This document shows positions 24,844 through 48,937 of a stretch of 49,450 nt of DNA, in pieces. Location: positions 1-49,450 of the IMG/VR virus record IMGVR_UViG_3300032311_000743. One strand, 5' to 3'. Below the pieces are notes generated by a model that made no database searches, had not been told where the DNA came from, and saw only the letters and a program-made list of their open reading frames with translations. The stretch's first letter is position 1. Each line of letters starts with the position of its first letter. The position numbers were made by a program, and so were the translations under genes. This DNA comes from a virus.

Positions 24844-25311
24844 ATGGTTCAAATAGAAAAATGTACCTATGTTGAAGATCTAATAAACAATCCAGATTTC
24901 AACACAGACGAGTACTACGGTTATGTTTACCTAACAACCAATTTAGAAACAAATCGCCAATATATAGGTAAAAAAATATTTAAACACACCCAAAACAAAA
25001 AATTAGGTAAAAAAGAATTAGCTGCCCTGCCTACTCAACGTGGTCGTGTTCCCTCTAAAAAGAAAATAGTTAAAGAATCTGACTGGAAAACATATTACGG
25101 CTCAGCAGATGAAGTTAAACAATGGGTCAAAACAACCCCCACAGATAAACTAACTCGTATTGTGTTACGTTTATGTAAATCATCTAAGGAACTAACATAT
25201 TATGAAACTAAATACCTATTTGATAATAACGTATTATCTGATAGTGAACGTTGGGTAAATAATAATATATTAGGAAAGTTTTTCCCGAAAGACTTGGCTC
25301 CCCAAATATAG
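24844..25311 (+). CDS. GIY-YIG-type nuclease, 155 aa
   Basis: The GIY-YIG core is seen as YGYVYLTT (residues 25-32) and QYIGKK (39-44), followed by SDWKTYYGS and LTYYETKYLFD with the likely metal-binding Glu. I recall this type from T4-like phages, where its role is unsettled: homing or DNA-processing nuclease. It starts 1 base after the structural gene and is probably co-transcribed with it. Confidence 0.8.
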   Translation: MVQIEKCTYVEDLINNPDFNTDEYYGYVYLTTNLETNRQYIGKKIFKHTQNKKLGKKELAALPTQRGRVPSKKKIVKESDWKTYYGSADEVKQWVKTTPTDKLTRIVLRLCKSSKELTYYETKYLFDNNVLSDSERWVNNNILGKFFPKDLAPQI

Positions 25312-27688: not shown

Positions 27689-28651
27689 ATGATTTCTTTA
27701 ATTAAAATTTTAAAAACTGTAATAACAGAAGGGGGTAATGTATTCGGCACTACATCTAGTATTAAGAAAGAATATATTAAACCAACTTTATTAAAATTTA
27801 CATCTGAATTAAAAAAAATATATCCAAAAGTAGATTTCAAATTTAACACATTAGGTTCTGTTGGTAAAAAAGACGAATCAGGGGACATTGATTTGGGTAT
27901 GGATGTTGATCAGTTTATGACCAAAGATGGTACACCATTGTTAGACAATTGGAATATAGATGAAGCAGAATTTGAAGCTTTATATGAAAAAATAAGAAAA
28001 CGTTCAAGATCAGCGACTGAAGCTCAAAGTAAATTAAGAGCTATGTTAGAATTAATCGCCATTAATATTGAAGAAAAATCACAATTTATAGACACAGACT
28101 TAAAAGCAGCGGGTGGTGGATCTATATTTTGCACTTTCCCCCAATATGACGAGAATGGAAAAGCATTAGATGACAAATCGGTACAAATAGACATTAATGT
28201 AGGTAATTTAGATTGGCTAAACTTTAGTTACTATTCAAACACATATAAAGATAATGTTAAAGGTTTACATAGAACACAACTAATGTTGTCTATGTTCCAA
28301 GCATTAGGTTTAACTTTTAATCATGGTACTGGTGTTAAAGATAAAGCAACAGGAGATGTAGTTGCTACTACCCCTAAAGAAGCACTAGATGTATTAAATA
28401 AAGGATATAACCTTAATTTATCTCAAGATGTACTAAATGACTATTTTGAATTAATGAATTCTTTAAAAAAGAATTTATCTGAAGGTGAATTAAACCAAAT
28501 ATTAGACACATATCTTAAAATATTAGACTCAACAAGAGCTGATATTCCAAATGACATTCAAGACTATTGGATCGCTAATCAATCTCGTCTAGGACTTAAG
28601 GGTAAATTTTTACCAGACAATTCTAATTTAACAAAATATAAAACAGCATAA
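27689..28651 (+). CDS. Putative capsid-targeted nucleotidyltransferase, 320 aa
   Basis: The leader MISLIKILKTVITE (residues 1-14) resembles the MIKL-class leaders and ends with an IxE cleavage-type site. Residues 56-68 (GSVGKKDESGDIDLG) show the GS...DxD signature of the DNA-polymerase-beta-like nucleotidyltransferase fold (G56-S57, D66, D68). The rest is helical. It may transfer a nucleotide to RNA, protein or a small molecule; the target is unknown. It has a TAATG junction with a second nucleotidyltransferase fusion. Confidence 0.8.
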   Translation: MISLIKILKTVITEGGNVFGTTSSIKKEYIKPTLLKFTSELKKIYPKVDFKFNTLGSVGKKDESGDIDLGMDVDQFMTKDGTPLLDNWNIDEAEFEALYEKIRKRSRSATEAQSKLRAMLELIAINIEEKSQFIDTDLKAAGGGSIFCTFPQYDENGKALDDKSVQIDINVGNLDWLNFSYYSNTYKDNVKGLHRTQLMLSMFQALGLTFNHGTGVKDKATGDVVATTPKEALDVLNKGYNLNLSQDVLNDYFELMNSLKKNLSEGELNQILDTYLKILDSTRADIPNDIQDYWIANQSRLGLKGKFLPDNSNLTKYKTA

Positions 28652-30573
28652 TGTCAGGATCAGCAGGAGGAAATAGAATACCAAGATCAGCTGTTGAAAA
28701 AACAGTTAAAGAATATATTGATAAAGTTTTAAGTAAAGTCCCTGGCTTCAAATCAGCTAAAGTATCAGGTTCATATAATACTTCGGACAAACAAGATTTT
28801 GGCGACATAGATTTAATTGCTTCTTTTGAAGGAAAAGATAAAAAAATATTTAAAAAAGAACTTGCCAAATATTTAGAATCACTCCCAGATGATGTGATAG
28901 TTCCTTTTAAAAGTGAAAAGTACGCGGGTAAGAAAACCATGAACACTGGTGAGATTGTTACAATACTATACCCAATAAGCGGAATGCCTGGTGAATTTGT
29001 ACAGATTGACAACATCATTGCTCTATCAGAAGAAGAAGGTGATTTTAAAAAAACATTCCTAGATTATCCAGCAGAAATCCAAGGTTTAATTTTAGGATTA
29101 GTTAAAGTAGTTACTTTAGAAGAAGATCCAAATAAAGTAATTGCTAGAATGGGTATAAAAAATATACCTGCTTTAGAACCAAATCAAGAATATGAATTTA
29201 ATTTATCATCTGCTGGTTTAACTTTAAGAATAGTTACTTTAGGAGAAGACTATAAACAACTTGAAAGAACAGATGTTTGGAAATCAAGTAATTGGGGAGA
29301 TGTAAAAAAATTACTCGCTGATTATAACATTGATCAATCATTTAAAGATTTAGTTTCTGACTTAAAAAAATTAAAAAACCCAAGATCTAAAAATAGAATT
29401 AAAGGTATATTTAAATCCATGGTGTCTATTAAGTCTGGAGAAGTTAACACCCCAAAAGGAGACAACAAACAGATGGCATTAGATACTGTTGCTACGTTGG
29501 AAGGAAAACACAATAGTTTAGTCCAAAGTTTAATATCTGGTATTATAAACGAAGAAATCACAAAAGAATCAATTGCATTATATCCAGGTAAATTCAAACC
29601 ACCACATAAAGGTCATTTTGAAGTGGCTAAACAATTACTTAATAAAGCAGATAAAGTAGAAATACTAATATCTGGTAAAGAAGTTGAAGGTATTACTGCT
29701 GAACAAAGTAAAGCAATTTGGGAATTATATAATGAATTATTAGGTGGAGGATTAGATATCAAAATTATCCAAGGATCACCAGTAAAATATGTTTTAGATA
29801 CTATTGAATCAAATCCAAACAACCACTATATAGCAGTATATGGTAAGGGTGATGAAGAAAGATACAGAAATATAGGTAAAGATCCTCGTTACATGAATGC
29901 TGAAGTATTTAACGGTGGTGCAATTTCATTAGGTGATGAAAATATCAGTGCTACTAATTTAAGAAAAGCAATGGTAGATAAAGATATTCAAGCAATAAAA
30001 TCTATGTTACCTGATGGTATTAACGCTAAAGAATATATCCAAACATTAGCCGGTCAAAAAAAATTACAAGAAGTAGTAACTGATACTGAAGTAATTTGTG
30101 ATAACTGTGGTTGGCATTGGTCCATTAAAGATGGTGGTGATGATTTATATATTTGCCATAAATGCGGACATGATAATACACCTAAATCAAATAAAGCTTG
30201 GAATCTCCAAAATGGGATCGTATCTTTAACTAAATACATGTTGGATAATGAAATGAATATATCACCATTACCTAAATTAAAATTTATAGATAATGATAAA
30301 GAAAATGCAGGTGAATTATTAGGAAAAACGGCATATTATAACCCGTTAGAAAAATCAATCACATTGTATACTTTAAATCGTCATCCTAAAGATATATTAC
30401 GTTCATATGCTCATGAGATGGTTCATCATGTTCAAAATTTAGAAAATAGATTAAATAATATTAATACTACTAATACAAATGAAGATGGAGCATTGCCTGA
30501 AATTGAAGAGGAAGCATATAAATTAGGAAACATGATGTTAAGAAATTGGGAAGATAATATTAAAAACAAATAA
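28651..30573 (+). CDS. Fusion: nucleotidyltransferase + cytidylyltransferase-like + zinc ribbon + metalloprotease
   Basis: 640 aa in four parts. Residues about 30-130 are a pol-beta-type nucleotidyltransferase (G40-S41, D52, D54). Residues about 306-465 are a nucleotidylyltransferase of the CoaD/NadM type, with H319-x2-H322 in KPPHKGH and ISATNLRKAM at 432-441. Residues 483-505 are a zinc ribbon (C483, C486, C502, C505). Residues about 580-625 contain H588-E-x2-H592-H593 plus a Glu-rich helix (619-621), a zinc metalloprotease. SGIINE near residue 300 looks like a prohead-protease site between parts 1 and 2. Substrates are unknown. Confidence 0.85.
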   Translation: MSGSAGGNRIPRSAVEKTVKEYIDKVLSKVPGFKSAKVSGSYNTSDKQDFGDIDLIASFEGKDKKIFKKELAKYLESLPDDVIVPFKSEKYAGKKTMNTGEIVTILYPISGMPGEFVQIDNIIALSEEEGDFKKTFLDYPAEIQGLILGLVKVVTLEEDPNKVIARMGIKNIPALEPNQEYEFNLSSAGLTLRIVTLGEDYKQLERTDVWKSSNWGDVKKLLADYNIDQSFKDLVSDLKKLKNPRSKNRIKGIFKSMVSIKSGEVNTPKGDNKQMALDTVATLEGKHNSLVQSLISGIINEEITKESIALYPGKFKPPHKGHFEVAKQLLNKADKVEILISGKEVEGITAEQSKAIWELYNELLGGGLDIKIIQGSPVKYVLDTIESNPNNHYIAVYGKGDEERYRNIGKDPRYMNAEVFNGGAISLGDENISATNLRKAMVDKDIQAIKSMLPDGINAKEYIQTLAGQKKLQEVVTDTEVICDNCGWHWSIKDGGDDLYICHKCGHDNTPKSNKAWNLQNGIVSLTKYMLDNEMNISPLPKLKFIDNDKENAGELLGKTAYYNPLEKSITLYTLNRHPKDILRSYAHEMVHHVQNLENRLNNINTTNTNEDGALPEIEEEAYKLGNMMLRNWEDNIKNK

Positions 30574-36610: not shown

Positions 36611-37735
36611 ATGAACCCATTCGATACATTTTTTAAAAAATACTCATATAAATTTCCTAAAGGATATCCTGACATGAACAATGAACAGGATATTTTATTG
36701 TTAGAAAATATATTAGAAGATTTAATAGGAGAAAAAGTCATAACTAGTAAATCCTCAGAAGTAGAGGCTAAAAAAGCGATAGAAATTCTTAAAGAGAAAC
36801 TAAATTTAACTGATTCTGATTTTACTAAAGAATCATCGACGCGTTATAAAATATTAGTGCCTGGTTCTGAACGTTACAATTACTTGGAAAAAATTATAAA
36901 AATTCCTGATTTTAGATATAATCCTAATGCTAAGGGTTCATCTATAGGAGCTATTGAGTACAATGGTATTTTATTTTTATTAAAACCTTCAAATTTACAA
37001 GGTAGAGCATCTGCTGGTACTGAAAATGAAGATATTTTATTTAATGAAATTAATAATTATATAGATGAAGGTGCTAAAAATATAGTATTTAAATCTCCAA
37101 ATAAAACATTAAAAATTAATAATGTTAAAGAAGTAGTAGGGGTAGGATATGATGTGTCTGGAGGTAAAAAAGCTGATATTATTATTAAAGCTAATAAAAA
37201 TTATCCTATATCAGTTAAAAAAGATAATGCATCTTTTTGGGAAAGTGCTGATACACGATATAAAGATATAGTAACAACTTTATCTAAAAAAATTAAAGCA
37301 GGTGATTTTTCTCCTGAATTAGTATTTATACCATTTGTAGATAAATTAGGTAATAAGAAAGAAGACATTAATACAATGTATAATAACAATACAAAATCTA
37401 AAGTTACAGGTATTATAGTCACAGATTTACCTTCAACATCTGCTGAATCTATTATATTTGGTTCAGATAAAGCTACTGTAATTTATAGAAGTTTTACTCC
37501 TGGTGATTTTGAATTAGATGGAGATACATTATATATTACTGTTTCTAAAATAATAAATAATTTAAAAGATGTCTATGAATATGATCTTGAACCTGTCTTA
37601 AACATCAGACATGACTCTACTAGACAAGCAACTGGTGGTTTAAGAGCCACAGTTCAACCTAAAGATAAAGTTTATTCTGATGGAGAAATAACAGGAAATA
37701 AAATTGAATTATCTTACAATGACATAATGTCTTAA
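36611..37735 (+). CDS. PD-(D/E)XK-like protein, 374 aa
   Basis: Residues about 140-204 contain ENEDILFNEI, then KKADIIIKANKNYPISVKK. The Asp at 189 followed by ISVK (S201-V-K203) fits a restriction-endonuclease-like fold in which the middle acidic residue is replaced. Thus it may be a diverged nuclease or an inactive DNA-binding form. The C-terminus (RHDSTRQATGGLRA) is conserved-looking and basic. No leader ending in LxE is at its N-terminus. Assignment is tentative. Confidence 0.65.
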   Translation: MNPFDTFFKKYSYKFPKGYPDMNNEQDILLLENILEDLIGEKVITSKSSEVEAKKAIEILKEKLNLTDSDFTKESSTRYKILVPGSERYNYLEKIIKIPDFRYNPNAKGSSIGAIEYNGILFLLKPSNLQGRASAGTENEDILFNEINNYIDEGAKNIVFKSPNKTLKINNVKEVVGVGYDVSGGKKADIIIKANKNYPISVKKDNASFWESADTRYKDIVTTLSKKIKAGDFSPELVFIPFVDKLGNKKEDINTMYNNNTKSKVTGIIVTDLPSTSAESIIFGSDKATVIYRSFTPGDFELDGDTLYITVSKIINNLKDVYEYDLEPVLNIRHDSTRQATGGLRATVQPKDKVYSDGEITGNKIELSYNDIMS

Positions 37736-37746: not shown

Positions 37747-38418
37747 ATGAATAACTTACGTGAACTTATTAGAAAAGTACTAAAAGAACGCACCCACGAT
37801 TGTGGATGTGGATGTCATGGTAAATGCGCTAAAGCACCCATGCTAAACGAAAATTTAAGCGCTAAAATAACGATGACTGAAAATATGTCATATCATATTA
37901 ATAATAAAAAACCATTAACAGAAAACACGTTTAGATACGGTTCAGATGCATTTTTAGATTTATGGGCTGAAGCACGTTACTTATATTCTCGTAATGCTAT
38001 TCATTTGTTAGGTGAAGATAAAAAAATAGTTACTGAAACTAATTTAGGCGAATATGGTATGTACAATGGAGAACAAGTACCATTAGACATACCTATGGTA
38101 GAGGACGATGTAGAAGAAATTACAGAATCAGAATATCAAGGTAAAAAAGTTCAACTAAACAAACCTAAACGAGGTGGATCTAAAAAATTCTACGTTTACG
38201 TACGTAATCCTAAAACTAAAAAAGTTAAAAAAGTATCATTCGGAGATACAACTGGACTATCTACTAAGGTAAATAATCCAAAAGCACGTAAAGCTTTTGC
38301 TAAACGCCAACAATGTGATAAGAAAAAAGACCGTACAAAACCTGGTTATTGGAGTTGTAACATTGGAAGATATTGGAAATCATTAGGTGGAAGCTCAAAC
38401 TTTAGTGGCTACTGGTAA
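37747..38418 (+). CDS. Putative capsid-targeted protein with conserved basic C-terminal domain, 223 aa
   Basis: The leader MNNLRELIRKVLKE (1-14) ends in LxE and is followed by a Cys/His-rich knot (HDCGCGCHGKCAK). Three further xxE-N sites (MLNEN, MTEN, LTEN) stand within residues 33-60. The last 85 residues (KKFYVYVRNPKTKKVKKVSF, then KARKAFAKRQQCDKKKDRTK and SCNIGRYW) form a basic Cys/Trp domain that I recall at the ends of T4-like head proteins. Probably a packaged, DNA-contacting protein. Confidence 0.8.
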   Translation: MNNLRELIRKVLKERTHDCGCGCHGKCAKAPMLNENLSAKITMTENMSYHINNKKPLTENTFRYGSDAFLDLWAEARYLYSRNAIHLLGEDKKIVTETNLGEYGMYNGEQVPLDIPMVEDDVEEITESEYQGKKVQLNKPKRGGSKKFYVYVRNPKTKKVKKVSFGDTTGLSTKVNNPKARKAFAKRQQCDKKKDRTKPGYWSCNIGRYWKSLGGSSNFSGYW

Positions 38419-38426
38419 TATTTATA
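38419..38426 (+). promoter_or_regulatory. Late-promoter-like motif TATTTATA
   Basis: Exact motif ending 3 bases before the ATG at 38430 and beginning right at the previous stop codon. Confidence 0.65.
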
Positions 38427-38429
38427 ACC

Positions 38430-39575
38430 ATGATCAAACTTACAGACATATTAAACGAATCATATAACCCAAATGTATATCAAATTGAATGCAGGGTAGT
38501 AATGGGTGCTGGAAATCGCCCAATCCAAGATATTATATCAGATATCAGAGCAATTCCTGGCGTTACCGTGGTAGATACAATTGAATCAGATTATAATACT
38601 GAAGAAGGAAGACACGTTACTGACCTTAGTATTAAAATAGACCCATCACCATTTAATCCATTTGACCGTAGTTCTTATATTAAAATATTAAATGATATAA
38701 AGAAATTACCTGACGTTAGAGGAGCTAAATACATTTCAGCCCCAGTTGTAGCTGAAAATAAATTACAAAGATTAATCAAAGAAGTACTACAAGAAGATAG
38801 ATGTAAGAAAATAGCAGACCGCAAATACGATAAACCATCAGCTTACAAATCGGGAGCTATAGTAAGATGTCGTAAAGGTGATATTTGGAAAGACTTAAAA
38901 GAAACAGACAATCCACAATCAGGGAAAGAAAAAAAAAACCTAAACATACAAGATTTAGCATATAAACAAATCCCCGGATTGTTAGAAAAGGGTATAAAAA
39001 ATGAATTAAAGTTTTTATCAAATAAAATAAATATGTCTTTTGAAGACATAAAAAATACTACAAAACCTCAAATAAAACGAGTTCCATTATCTTCAATAGA
39101 ACCCTCTCAATATGGTGAAGACTATGAAAACCCATCATCTGAATATGAAGCAGAAGAATTTGAAAAAATATTGAATGGTGAAAAAGATGTAAAAAACCAC
39201 AGAGAGGAAGATTTCAATCCAATATTAGTTGATAAAAATACAAACAAAATAATTGATGGAAATCACAGACATTATGCCCTTTCAACTATAGGCTCACCAT
39301 ACGCTGTAGTATTATTTGTTGATATTCCAAAAGAATATTTAAATGAAGCTAAAAAAGAAACACTCCGCACTTGGTTTAAACGTAAAGGCGCCCCAGGTAA
39401 AGAAGGTGGATGGGTTGATTGTAATGCTCCAATTCGTAAAGATGGTAAAATAACAGGATATAAAGCATGTGGTAGAAAAGAAGGTGAAAAACGAGCTAAA
39501 TACCCATCATGTCGTCCTACAGCAGCACAATGTAAAACACCTGGTAAAGGTAAAAAATGGGGTAAAACAAAATGA
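38430..39575 (+). CDS. Putative capsid-targeted ParB-like protein with DUF5872-like tail, 381 aa
   Basis: The leader MIKLTDILNE (1-10) is the MIKL class. Residues 15-105 look like a small alpha/beta domain. Residues about 110-122 (NKLQRLIKEVLQE) are a second leader-like helix with an LxE site. Residues about 214-305 form a ParB/Srx-like domain (RVPLSSIEPSQY, PILVDKNTNKIIDGNHRHYA). The last 70 (ETLRTWFKRKG, GGWVDC, GYKACGRKEGEKRAKYPSCR) match the DUF5872-like pattern. ParB-like folds can act as nucleases or NTPases. ATGA overlap with the next gene. Confidence 0.8.
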   Translation: MIKLTDILNESYNPNVYQIECRVVMGAGNRPIQDIISDIRAIPGVTVVDTIESDYNTEEGRHVTDLSIKIDPSPFNPFDRSSYIKILNDIKKLPDVRGAKYISAPVVAENKLQRLIKEVLQEDRCKKIADRKYDKPSAYKSGAIVRCRKGDIWKDLKETDNPQSGKEKKNLNIQDLAYKQIPGLLEKGIKNELKFLSNKINMSFEDIKNTTKPQIKRVPLSSIEPSQYGEDYENPSSEYEAEEFEKILNGEKDVKNHREEDFNPILVDKNTNKIIDGNHRHYALSTIGSPYAVVLFVDIPKEYLNEAKKETLRTWFKRKGAPGKEGGWVDCNAPIRKDGKITGYKACGRKEGEKRAKYPSCRPTAAQCKTPGKGKKWGKTK

Positions 39576-40366
39576 TAAAACTCACAAACATATTAAAAGA
39601 AATCATTGAGGGAACTTGTGGCTATAATACAGATGCTAAAACAGGTAAAAAATTAAATACACCTGGTGGTTTAGAGGAAGCAGATCCTAAAACAGGCACA
39701 GGTAAAAAACCTAAAGGATCAGGTCGTCGCTTATACACAGATGAAAATCCAAAAGATACTGTATCTATTAAGTTTAAAACTAAAGAAGATATAGTTGATA
39801 CATTAAATAAAGATTCATTTAAATCTAAATCACACGCTCGTCAATCACAAATCATTAACTTAATCCATCAACGAGTTAGAGCAGCATACGGCAAAGCTAA
39901 AGATCCTGAAGTAAAATCTAGATTAAAACGTGCTTTAGATTATATTGAAAAACGTAAAGAAGCATCTAAAGCAAAAACACAACGTTTAAATGAAGGAAAA
40001 CAAATTGGATTATTATATCATTATACTGATATAAAAAATATAAAAAATATTTTAGATAAAGGATTAAAATTTAGTAAACCTCAAGAAAAAATTTCAAGTA
40101 AATATTATATATCTACTACTAGAAAAAAACAAAATTGGAAACATTTAGCAGAAATTGTTTTAGATGGTAATAAAATATCACAAAATTACAAAATAATCCC
40201 TATAAATGCTTCTACTTTTATCGACAAACCAAGTGATGAGTGGTTTAAACAAGTAGGAGTTAAAATAGATAGCCTCGGAAGTTCTGAATTAGCTGAAGAA
40301 AGAATAATATCTCTACACCCAGGATACTTAGATCCCAAATATATCTTAAAAATAACATATTTATAA
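39572..40366 (+). CDS. Putative capsid-targeted ADP-ribosyltransferase-like protein, 264 aa
   Basis: The leader MIKLTNILKE (1-10) ends in LxE. Residues 15-140 (CGYNTDAKTGKK, SGRRLYTDENPKD, KSHARQSQIINLIHQRVRAA) form a basic helical domain that recurs in head proteins of related phages. Residues about 145-264 resemble an ART fold: LLYHYTDIKNIKNILDKGL with H150, YYISTTR at 178-184, and SSELAEERI with E239/E243. In T4, Alt is a packaged ADP-ribosyltransferase that modifies host RNA polymerase, so the analogy is attractive but unproven. Confidence 0.75.
   Translation: MIKLTNILKEIIEGTCGYNTDAKTGKKLNTPGGLEEADPKTGTGKKPKGSGRRLYTDENPKDTVSIKFKTKEDIVDTLNKDSFKSKSHARQSQIINLIHQRVRAAYGKAKDPEVKSRLKRALDYIEKRKEASKAKTQRLNEGKQIGLLYHYTDIKNIKNILDKGLKFSKPQEKISSKYYISTTRKKQNWKHLAEIVLDGNKISQNYKIIPINASTFIDKPSDEWFKQVGVKIDSLGSSELAEERIISLHPGYLDPKYILKITYL
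40358..40365 (+). promoter_or_regulatory. Late-promoter-like motif TATTTATA
   Basis: Exact motif embedded in the last codons of the preceding gene, 8 bases before the ATG at 40374. Confidence 0.6.
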
Positions 40367-40373
40367 TCAAACA

Positions 40374-40691
40374 ATGATAAAACTACTCCAACTACTAACT
40401 GAAGCTAAAGAAAGCTTTGAACAATTTGCTAAAAATCGTTTAGCAGGTGCTGAAAAAATTATAGCTAACGCTAAGGAAAAAGGTGGAGATGCTTTATTAA
40501 CATACACCCACTTTAAAATAAAACCATCTTACTATAAAAAAGCTATAGATGGTAAATTTGATAAAGAAGCAGCTAAAAAAGAATTTGATAAAACATATAA
40601 AAAAATTTCATTAGATATGACTCAAACTGAATTCCAGCGTGAAGTTGGACGTTTAGAGGTGTTAGGTGAATTATTAATAAGAGAAAAATAA
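40374..40691 (+). CDS. Putative capsid-targeted small protein, 105 aa
   Basis: The leader MIKLLQLLTE (1-10) is followed by an all-helical body (FAKNRLAGAEKIIANAKEKG, GDALLTYTHFKIKPSYYKKA). The DALLTxxHFKxK pattern is one I recall in small marine phage proteins of unknown role. No catalytic motif is visible. It lies 5 bases upstream of the Cys-rich gene. Confidence 0.8.
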   Translation: MIKLLQLLTEAKESFEQFAKNRLAGAEKIIANAKEKGGDALLTYTHFKIKPSYYKKAIDGKFDKEAAKKEFDKTYKKISLDMTQTEFQREVGRLEVLGELLIREK

Positions 40692-41503: not shown

Positions 41504-42691
41504 ATGATAAAATTAGTTAACATATTAAATGAGATAATAAATGAAGCTTTACCTATATCTAAAGCTAAAGAATTATATTCTATACAAAAATCAGATAAAG
41601 TAGTTCAATATCAAAATAAAATTTTTAATGAATTAAAGAACACACCTGAATATATAAAATCTAACAAAACTGGAGATAGATTATATTTTAAATTTATTAA
41701 AGAAAAAGATGAAGAAGAAGTTAATGTGTTTAAGTCAAATCCTGAAATAATTAAAGCATTACAAGATAATAATTTTAAAGTAAAAGATTATATTAAAGGA
41801 ACAGCAACAGATAAATACGACAGAGAAGTTAAAATAGGAAAAATATTACAAAAAACAAATCCAGAATTACTACAAAAATTTAATAATGATATTGACAGAA
41901 AAGCTTCTAAAGATAAAAATCAATTAATTGTAATATCTAAAAATCCATATGATATAGGAGGTGCGTCTACAGATAGAGGATGGGATTCATGTATGAATTT
42001 ATACACTGGTAAGAATGCACAATATATTAATTGTGATATTGAACAAGGTACTATAATAGCATATTTAATAGATGTAAATGATTTAAATATAAATAATCCT
42101 CAAGCTAGAATATTTGTTAAACCTTTTATAAATATAAAAGATAAAAATGATATAATATATTATCCTGAACGTGTTGTTTATGGGACTGCGCCTAAATCAT
42201 TTGAAGTTTTTATAAATAAAATATTTAAAAAATATTATCCTAAATCTGGAACATACTCACTAACCCCAGGTTTATATGCTGATGATGCTGATGAAGATGA
42301 AGAAAGACTAATTGATTTTAAATCAATAGAATCTAGTAATAGAGATAAACAAATAGAAAAAAAAATAATTAAAAATATTCCTTTATCTAAAGATGAACTA
42401 AATATCAACAATTTAATTTTAGTAAATAAAAATATTGAATCACTACCTGATAGTCTTAATATTAAAAATTTACTTTCATTAGCAGATAACCCAAATCTCA
42501 AATATCTTCCAGATAATATAAAAATAGGAGGAAATTTATGGTTATCAGATACAGGTATAGAAGATCTTCCTAAAAATTTAAAAATAATGAATATCTCTTT
42601 AAATAACACCCCTTTAGCTAAAAAATATAATAATAATTCTGATGAAATAAGAAAAGCTTACCCTAATATTAACGGAAGAATTTATATTTAA
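41504..42691 (+). CDS. Putative capsid-targeted protein with LRR tail, 395 aa
   Basis: The leader MIKLVNILNEIINEA offers two cut sites (after E10 and E14). Residues about 140-245 (LIVISKNPYDIGGASTDRGW, DSCMNL, GTIIAYLID, then ARIFVKPF and YPERVVYGTAP) form a domain I recall from marine phage proteins of unknown function. The last 100 residues are short leucine-rich repeats (IESLPDSLNIKNL, YLPDNIKIGGNLWLSDTGIE). LRRs bind partners, so it may act on a host protein after entry (inference). Confidence 0.8.
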   Translation: MIKLVNILNEIINEALPISKAKELYSIQKSDKVVQYQNKIFNELKNTPEYIKSNKTGDRLYFKFIKEKDEEEVNVFKSNPEIIKALQDNNFKVKDYIKGTATDKYDREVKIGKILQKTNPELLQKFNNDIDRKASKDKNQLIVISKNPYDIGGASTDRGWDSCMNLYTGKNAQYINCDIEQGTIIAYLIDVNDLNINNPQARIFVKPFINIKDKNDIIYYPERVVYGTAPKSFEVFINKIFKKYYPKSGTYSLTPGLYADDADEDEERLIDFKSIESSNRDKQIEKKIIKNIPLSKDELNINNLILVNKNIESLPDSLNIKNLLSLADNPNLKYLPDNIKIGGNLWLSDTGIEDLPKNLKIMNISLNNTPLAKKYNNNSDEIRKAYPNINGRIYI

Positions 42692-45573: not shown

Positions 45574-45594
45574 TTAAACCGCAAAATGAAAATA

Positions 45595-45933
45595 ATGAAT
45601 AAAAAACAAGCATTAAACGAAGAATTCAAAAGAATGCAAAAACTAGCAGGTATTCAATTAAATGAAAATTTCACCCCCAATGAAATTGAATCTATAGCAT
45701 CTAATTTAGATACTGAATTAAAATTCTCCTCTGAGACTTTAAAAGGTAGATTCATTGATTTAGGTATTAATTTTACTCTATCTCCTGATAGACACCAACT
45801 TATATTAAATATATCTCCAAGTACGGGGTATGATGATCCGCAAGAATTCATAGATGATGTAGAAAGTGAAGTGGGGTTTCCTGAGTATAATTTTAGTGTA
45901 AATGGCAATAAAGTTTATATTGTTAAAAAATAA
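45595..45933 (+). CDS. Putative capsid-targeted protein, 112 aa
   Basis: Start chosen at ATG 45595 (MNKKQALNEEFKRMQKLAGI). The in-frame ATG at 45586 lies in a leader (aaaccgcaaaat) repeated before 46435, where that ATG is ATA, so it is not required. The leader ends in QLNE at residue 24, an LxE site. The body is a small alpha/beta domain (SIASNLDTELKFSSETLKGR) with no known family. Confidence 0.78.
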   Translation: MNKKQALNEEFKRMQKLAGIQLNENFTPNEIESIASNLDTELKFSSETLKGRFIDLGINFTLSPDRHQLILNISPSTGYDDPQEFIDDVESEVGFPEYNFSVNGNKVYIVKK

Positions 45934-45949
45934 ATAAAAAATAAAAATA

Positions 45950-46399
45950 ATGAATAAAAAACAAGCATTAAATAAAGAATTTCTTCACATGCAAAAACTA
46001 GCAGGTATTATTACTGAAGGCGAGTATAAACAAAAATTAAATGAAGCTTCATTTTCAAGTACTGATGTTAATGCTATTTTAAAAGCTGCTAGAGCTGCTG
46101 TTGAAGCAGGTAAAGAGGTAACTGTTGATGGTATTAAAATAGGAAAGGTAGTACCTGGATTAGGAAGATTTATCCCTGCTGATGGTAGCCAATCTTTAAA
46201 AATTATGGATTACGTTGGTGAACCAGAAAAAATTGTAATTGATGGAGTTCCTGCTGTATTGAAACCAATGGAACCTTCTAAACCACAACCTGATACAAGA
46301 ACACCAGAAGAAAAAGCAAAAGCACAAGCTGCGTTTGATGATAGATACGGCCCAGGTGGTGGATATGATACAGCATTCGGAAGATACACAGGCGATTAA
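45950..46399 (+). CDS. Putative capsid-targeted protein, 149 aa
   Basis: The leader MNKKQALNKEFLHMQKLAGI plus ITE (1-23) is nearly identical in DNA to that of the previous gene: by my count 51 of the first 60 bases match, with the differences confined to the middle. A second LNEA site follows at about residue 32. The body has VNAILKAARAAVEAGKEVTV and a Pro/Gly-rich tail ending GGGYDTAFGRYTGD. Function unknown. Confidence 0.8.
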   Translation: MNKKQALNKEFLHMQKLAGIITEGEYKQKLNEASFSSTDVNAILKAARAAVEAGKEVTVDGIKIGKVVPGLGRFIPADGSQSLKIMDYVGEPEKIVIDGVPAVLKPMEPSKPQPDTRTPEEKAKAQAAFDDRYGPGGGYDTAFGRYTGD

Positions 46400-47362: not shown

Positions 47363-48937
47363 ATGAGTCAAGATATTAAACAAATAATAAAGGAAGAATA
47401 CATAAAATGCGCTAGTGACCCTGCACATTTCATGCGCAAGTACTGCCATATTCAACACCCACAAAGAGGCCGCGTAATATTTAATCTATACCCATTCCAG
47501 GGTAAAGTATTGACACTATGGAAAGATAATCCATATTCAATAGTATTAAAATCTAGACAATTAGGTATATCAACATTAGCCGCTGGATATTCATTGTGGT
47601 TAATGATATTTCATAAAGATAAAAACATTTTATGTTTATCTAAGACTCAAGAAACAGCCAGAAACATGGTTACTAAAGTTAAGTTTATGTACGATAACTT
47701 ACCATCTTGGTTAAAAGTACCTACCGAAGAAAATAATAAACTATCAATACGTTTAAATAATGGTTCTCAAGTTAAAGCTAAATCATCAAATAGTGACTCA
47801 GCACGTTCGGAAGCCGTATCATTACTTGTGATAGATGAGGCCGCGTTTATTGACAACATTGAAGAAACTTGGGCATCCGCTCAACAAACCCTAGCAACCG
47901 GTGGTGGTGCTATAGTATTATCTACACCTTACGGTACCGGAAACTGGTTCCACCAAACATGGGTTAGTGCTGAAAATGCTGAAAACGATTTTTTACCTAT
48001 AAAATTACCATGGTATGTTCATCCTGAACGAGATGAAACTTGGAGAAAAAGACAAGATGAATTATTAGGTGACCCTAGATTAGCAGCACAAGAGTGTGAC
48101 TGTGATTTTAGCACTTCAGGTGATATAGTATTTTATAACGAGTGGTTAGAATTTATATCTACAACTACTGTACAAGAACCTACAGAACGAAGAGGTGTAG
48201 ATCAAAATTACTGGGTATGGGAACAACCTGATTACTCAAGAGATTATATGGTTGTAGCTGACGTGGCTAGAGGAGATGGAAAAGACCATTCGGCATTTCA
48301 TGTTATAGACATAGCAACTAACATACAAGTAGCGGAATATAAAGGACAATTACCACCTAAAGAATTTGGATATTTTTTAGTTGGAGTAGCGTCAGAATAT
48401 AATCAAGCATTGCTTGTAGTTGAAAATGCAAACATAGGTTGGGCAACAATAGATGCTGTAATCGAGCGTGATTACAAAAATTTATATTATTCTCCTAAAA
48501 CAGAAGCTTTAACCGTAGATTCATATTTTAACAAATATGAAAATAGTGATACTGTAACTCCTGGCTTTACAATGTCTTTAAGAACAAGACCATTAGTAGT
48601 AAACAAATTAAGAGAATTTGTAGGAGACCGTTCAGTAACAATACGTTCTAAAAGATTAGTAGATGAAATGAAAGTATTTGTCTGGAAAAATGGTAGAGCC
48701 GAAGCTCAAAGCGGATACAATGATGACCTAGTAATGTCATTCGGTATAGGAATGTACTTAAGAGACACATCACTAAAATTCAGACAACAAAGTCAAGATT
48801 TAACTCGTGCCGCTTTAAATAATGTAGGTCGATCAAAACCTACTCAAGGAGCATATTTCGCTACAGGCCGTGATAATCCTTATTTTATGGACAATGGTAA
48901 AGGAGGTAAAGAAGATTTTAGTTGGATTTTAGGTTAA
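47363..48937 (+). CDS. terL: Terminase large subunit (T4 gp17-like)
   Basis: 524 aa against 610 for T4 gp17. The ATPase has a deviant Walker A, LKSRQLGIST (residues 62-71), in which the usual Lys before the Thr is Ile and K63 stands at the front. Walker B is LLVIDEAAF (D158-E159), followed by the coupling motif STPYGTGN (about 188). The RNase-H-like nuclease has D300 (VVADVARGDG), E354 (LVVENAN) and D454/D455 (GYNDDLVMS). It pumps DNA into the prohead and cuts it. No small subunit is visible in the window. Confidence 0.96.
   Translation: MSQDIKQIIKEEYIKCASDPAHFMRKYCHIQHPQRGRVIFNLYPFQGKVLTLWKDNPYSIVLKSRQLGISTLAAGYSLWLMIFHKDKNILCLSKTQETARNMVTKVKFMYDNLPSWLKVPTEENNKLSIRLNNGSQVKAKSSNSDSARSEAVSLLVIDEAAFIDNIEETWASAQQTLATGGGAIVLSTPYGTGNWFHQTWVSAENAENDFLPIKLPWYVHPERDETWRKRQDELLGDPRLAAQECDCDFSTSGDIVFYNEWLEFISTTTVQEPTERRGVDQNYWVWEQPDYSRDYMVVADVARGDGKDHSAFHVIDIATNIQVAEYKGQLPPKEFGYFLVGVASEYNQALLVVENANIGWATIDAVIERDYKNLYYSPKTEALTVDSYFNKYENSDTVTPGFTMSLRTRPLVVNKLREFVGDRSVTIRSKRLVDEMKVFVWKNGRAEAQSGYNDDLVMSFGIGMYLRDTSLKFRQQSQDLTRAALNNVGRSKPTQGAYFATGRDNPYFMDNGKGGKEDFSWILG

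Follow-up and report, generated by a model that had tools for sequence, protein, structure and literature searches.

Does the gene at 39572..40366 (+ strand) of IMG/VR virus record IMGVR_UViG_3300032311_000743 encode an ADP-ribosyltransferase (ART) that is packed into the head of this T4-like phage and enters the host with the DNA, as Alt does in T4? The window referred to below is the whole 49,450-nt stretch of this record that was analysed. The open reading frame (ORF) encodes 264 amino acids from an ATG start that overlaps the stop codon of the upstream gene, and the motifs on which the original prediction of an Alt-like ART was built are present as YHYTD (residues 149-153, with H150), YYISTTR (178-184) and ELAEERI (239-245). 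The reading we favor, at a probability of roughly 0.68, is that the product is a head-targeted, protease-released ART precursor that is injected to modify the host. A leader of residues 1-13 would carry the precursor into the prohead core, where a gp21-type protease would cut after [LI]xE sites (LKE10/IIE13, LEE36 and LNE141) and free at least two products: the basic helical module of residues 37-141, and the ART itself, 123 residues long (142-264). The ART would then remain in the head, enter the cell alongside the DNA and at once move ADP-ribose from NAD+ onto a host macromolecule, as Alt does in T4. Cleavage, packaging, injection and catalysis are all steps that we infer for this protein.

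Modules and predicted cleavage sites of the precursor

The T4 prohead protease gp21 has the specificity (L/I)xE. The window protein begins with the kind of N-terminal leader expected of Alt-like cargo, ending in a gp21-type [LI]xE site: MIKLTNILKE/IIE (residues 1-13; 39572..39610, + strand) is a predicted capsid-targeting propeptide with two such sites, LKE10 and IIE13. Behind it stands a short module, GTCGYNTDAKTGKKLNTPGGLEE (residues 14-36; 39611..39679, + strand), which terminates in LEE and recurs separately in other mosaic proteins (for example at 515-541 of L048 and in L046, L047 and L078, by blastp). A second candidate cargo module, defined by blastp and an AlphaFold2 (AF2) model as basic and helical, occupies residues 37-141 (39680..39994, + strand) and terminates in LNE (residues 139-141; 39986..39994, + strand), the predicted prohead-protease site between this module and the ART. 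The ART domain starts at about residue 142, and residues 142-264 (39995..40363, + strand) are the predicted mature product on the basis of the alignment, the AF2 model and matches in the PDB. Residues 1-144 had been taken as the head-targeting leader; this stands for the leader-like residues 1-13, but 14-36 and 37-141 are extra modules that occur elsewhere.

BLAST of the two halves (residues 1-144 and 139-264) against the fetched viral contigs revealed that they have separate histories. The first half is 97% identical in L001, where other sequence comes next. L010 and L011 share the final 126 residues at 95% identity and have a wholly different N-terminal part ahead of them, with the switch at LNE/GKQIG. 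The module of residues 37-141 is widespread (at least 70 loci by blastp, 42 distinct sequences), and module order differs, the ART preceding a module of this type in L048 and coming after it in the window protein. Its AF2 model (pLDDT 74) consists of a low-confidence basic tail and then helices; it matched nothing in Pfam or among PDB sequences and no fold clearly, the Z scores of up to 8.7 among helical proteins being taken as uninformative.

The junction found in the window protein is shared across the family. A hydrophobic-x-E tripeptide lies just before a conserved K(Q/N)(V/I)G in 34/34 of the ART modules retrieved from viral contigs, a count that partly reflects selection because most relatives were fetched with patterns containing the LNE junction. 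Six members outside the search pattern also have the tripeptide (LSE twice, INE, ITE, IDE and LNE). Leaders of at least three unrelated kinds precede the ART (MIKLxxxLxE, M..ELKxLIKEE...LNE and MNKE..MQ.LAG..TE...LNE). The first kind, which resembles the leader of the window protein, is joined straight to the ART in relatives L086, L088, L105, L112 and L114 and is also found on the window genes at 38430, 40374, 41504 and 2499. Across the fetched ORFs, 275 of 777 homology breakpoints carried [LI]xE compared to 99.6 expected (2.8-fold) and 143 carried [VFM]xE compared to 64 expected, with ratios of 0.7-1.3 for the remaining motifs tested, although these breakpoints are partly non-independent.

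ART domains also reside inside mosaic proteins of up to 1325 aa, usually with a further hydrophobic-x-E site just behind the ART. Some of these mosaics also hold nucleotidyltransferase and weak zincin-like (Peptidase_M91) parts, so that the mosaics, like polyvalent proteins, unite disparate domains in one polypeptide; the window protein joins two modules. A 640-aa protein encoded elsewhere in the window (28651-30573) has a cytidylyltransferase-like match and a weak match to phage nicotinamide-nucleotide adenylyltransferase, and its cytidylyltransferase-like kind of domain is also present in several ART mosaics. With slightly less than even odds, we propose that head cargo is assembled in a mix-and-match manner, recombination joining modules at prohead-protease sites and long polyproteins loading many injected effectors. 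Because modules would join at these sites, any acquired effector, the ART included, would be cut free in the head whatever its leader or neighbor.

The ART domain and its family

The original prediction had proposed structure prediction as a check on its ART-like C-terminus, and the best structural matches are indeed proteins of the ART superfamily. The AF2 model of residues 140-264 (pLDDT 81, pTM 0.75) retrieved only Tpt1/KptA or DarT structures among its top 21 Foldseek matches in the PDB. Pairwise comparison in VIA gave Z scores of 11.0 for Tpt1 (81 aa, 1.8 Å), 8.3 for DarT (110 aa, 4.2 Å), 8.0 for the Rhs toxin TreX and 7.4 for Scabin, with CARDS, pertussis and cholera-type ARTs below these, and a phage DarT was among the viral structure models matching the domain. 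Given the AF2 model, the Foldseek and VIA matches and the Tox-ART-HYD1 matches of 20 family members, residues 142-264 are firmly assigned to the ART fold (split beta-sheet) as far as predicted structure goes.

A family profile search of viral contigs returned 35 loci, from which 33 sequences were aligned. The columns invariant in all 33 include Y149, H150, I160, T183, R184, G199, S203, P210, E242 and E243, and T152 (32/33) and S181 (31/33) are nearly so. Several of these residues lie in the strand 1 motif YHYT (residues 149-152; 40016..40027, + strand), in which H150 is the predicted NAD-binding histidine, the STTR motif (181-184; 40112..40123, + strand) and the predicted catalytic glutamate region E242-E243 (40295..40300, + strand). 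H150 and E242/E243 would correspond to the strand-1 NAD-binding residue and the glutamate near the last core strand that are typical of the ART superfamily, and it is from the conserved His and Glu that ADP-ribosyltransferase activity is deduced.

Pfam Tox-ART-HYD1 was matched by 20 of the 33 members (best e-value 2.6e-5; one member just above the Pfam cut-off), and two of the three matches in a PDB profile search were to DarT, both weak. The window protein queried alone gave PARP (2e-3), PTS_2-RNA (6e-3) and DarT (0.06) in Pfam, all under cut-off (13.6 bits for DarT compared to the 22.5 required). Searches of NCBIfam and PADLOC returned nothing convincing and a family-profile scan of genome contigs found zero relatives. 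In a phage collection the window protein alone yielded weak C-terminal matches and other family members used as queries reached cultured phages.

Delivery in the head and competing explanations

In T4, gp21 trims the precursors of the IP proteins and of Alt within the prohead (PMC9958956). A gp21-type protease was found in 10 of the 12 records tested (10 of the 11 related records), the window not being one of the ten, and in the protease-bearing phages LxE sites also lie near the N-termini of the protease and scaffold. As an independent test, we compared leaders and proteases using core-profile matches in named and uncultured phage genomes. Seven protease-bearing genomes (Slickus01, Slicko01, Mel-JY01, Vibrio D484 and K566, SCTP-2 and LR756508) have a short leader with [LI]xE on 14/15 ART genes, the 15th having VTE. 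By contrast, four genomes with no protease-family match (Dickeya JA13, Salmonella Sen-NF, HRDY3 and Lu11) have an LxE leader on 0/8 ART genes. This co-occurrence has a Fisher p of 0.015 per genome, a value that overstates independence because the genomes are partly related (Slickus/Slicko and D484/K566). LR756504 combines an IFE with a protease match that is sub-threshold. Two observations concern leaders more generally. In the Alishewanella phages Slickus01 (L143) and Slicko01 (L144) the ART gene is present as 4-5 diverged copies in tandem, all of which have an LLEE-type leader, and the ART genes of the Pseudomonas phages Lu11 (L169) and HRDY3 (L146) have another common short N-terminus, MKIQLAVAGSS / MEMMLALAGSS, which is perhaps a different targeting signal.

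The head-targeting leader claimed in the original prediction is borne out by comparison, in that a site is always at the junction, breakpoints are enriched in such sites, the leader co-occurs with a gp21-type protease and a putative late promoter is held in common with head genes. From its placement behind cleavable head-targeting sequences, the ART is therefore probably carried in the head and injected, and we regard head delivery as well supported by these indirect lines of evidence. Several points weigh against this conclusion. No gp21-type (S77) protease gene was found in the 49-kb window, a fragment that ends just after the terminase gene. LAE tripeptides within the ART, one containing E242 and another at 192-194, could be cut by an unrestrained protease. 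To these are added the selection behind the 34/34 count, the relatedness of the genomes behind the p value, the sub-threshold Pfam matches of the window protein itself and its leucine (L240) at the first position of the ExE motif, two before E242, where 29/33 members have glutamate.

One alternative, which we consider unlikely, is that an active ART is synthesized within the infected cell and never packaged, the N-terminal helices serving assembly, membrane or tail binding. The JA13, Sen-NF, HRDY3 and Lu11 relatives lack both an LxE leader and a gp21-type protease match, so the family can function without such packaging. However, the junction in 34/34 modules, the breakpoint enrichment, the occurrence of the leader only alongside the protease and the putative late promoter common to the terminase and a head-operon gene all argue for packaging of the window protein.

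A second alternative concerns the target rather than delivery, and is compatible with packaging. A host protein is the most likely substrate of the injected ART, but a DarT-like enzyme might instead modify DNA or RNA, hitting the nucleic acid of the host or of a competing phage. Among glutamate-bearing ARTs, DarT comes closest in the profile search, and it also forms the second group of fold matches. DarT and Tox-ART-HYD1 share with the window family the strand-1 His (YHxT), the ART fold and a Glu in the last conserved motif. The sequence similarity to both is nevertheless weak and limited to the N-terminal part of the domain, that to DarT being restricted to the common fold and the first motif, and no macro-domain antidote of the DarG type was found in the window or in eight relatives. 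We rate this alternative about as improbable as the unpackaged enzyme.

Least probable is an ART-like fold with another function, as a degenerate NAD-binder, an NADase or a relative of the RNA 2'-phosphotransferase Tpt1/KptA. The top structural match is indeed Tpt1, a phosphate-transferring enzyme whose C-lobe superposes at 1.8 Å over 81 residues, and L240 replaces the usual ExE glutamate, but the match is confined to Tpt1 88-177, the helical residues 37-141 give no match to the Tpt1 N-lobe that would be expected ahead of the ART, and the invariant His, Arg and Glu pair suit ADP-ribosyl transfer, as in DarT and the HYD1 ARTs. No use of such a Glu pair is known for Tpt1. The sequence would also be compatible with an NADase.

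This probable head-packaged ART is best described as a possible analogue of T4 Alt and not as a homologue. Alt is likewise imported into the head via an N-terminal leader, trimmed by gp21 and coinjected with the DNA (PMC9958956, PMC5512222), as is predicted here. Yet the Alt/VIP2 clade is defined by R-S-E, with Arg in strand 1 (PMC5512222), while the window family has a strand-1 His in 33/33 members and no Alt-type Pfam match, which rules out homology. The window domain, at 123 aa, is also much smaller, and it forms one module in a precursor of several parts. Polyvalent-protein ARTs (Tox-ART-HYD2; PMC5512222) similarly lie among shuffled domains of disparate function, in presumably injected phage proteins. 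The window family differs from them in having Glu-Glu in place of the strand-5 Asp, so it does not have the H-Y-D active site of HYD2, and in having gp21-type LxE junctions rather than an embedded metallopeptidase alone.

The idea that the Alt strategy recurs on another leader type holds insofar as both the ART class and the leaders are different, but recurrence beyond T4 is not itself novel, as head-packaged ARTs had already been proposed for other ART families from other evidence (PMC5512222, PMC9503650). What appears new is the window family of ARTs, together with its proposed delivery on shuffled modules that a protease cuts apart, no published description of either the family or LxE-joined cargo modules having been found in a literature that mostly excludes subscription journals. 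A family of ARTs that has no curated model would thereby join the enzymes that phages probably inject, and the Alt strategy would extend to another ART class and to other leaders. The rule that a module starts after hydrophobic-x-E predicts many other unannotated cargo modules. Cultured carriers of the family (Alishewanella Slickus01/Slicko01 and Microcystis Mel-JY01) are available for direct tests.

A putative late promoter and the neighboring genes

The ART gene is the second of a two-gene unit (38430-40366) preceded by a putative late promoter element, TATTTATA, at 38419..38426 (+ strand). Of the 20 + strand copies of this element, 14 are located no more than 30 nt ahead of a gene start, accounting for 14 of the 57 window genes at distances of 3-20 nt (window 6042-47363). 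The genes concerned include the one at 38430, directly before the ART gene, the T4-type terminase at 47363 and four further LxE-leader genes (37747, 40374, 41504 and 45586). The element also precedes a head-operon gene located ahead of the protease in L127 and L129, and no copy of it was found 35 nt or less from the actual protease or scaffold genes. TATTTATA is the reverse complement of the T4 late promoter TATAAATA; we rejected TATAAATA in the + orientation as the promoter since only 3/12 copies are upstream of genes, with unclear placement, compared to 14/20 for the reverse complement. Judged from this placement, the ART unit may be expressed late with the head genes.

The region just upstream of the terminase is a probable cargo cluster (36611-37735, 37747-38418, 38430-39575, 40374-40691, 41504-42691 and 45586-46399), most genes of which bear LxE leaders. 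The gene at 38430 has ParB-like and DUF5872-like parts, and the gene at 36611 has no clear leader and matches phrog_12709 at 3e-25. Farther away in the window, the best PHROG for 24844-25311 is labelled 'NAD synthetase', yet homing endonuclease profiles match this gene too and the label is probably wrong.
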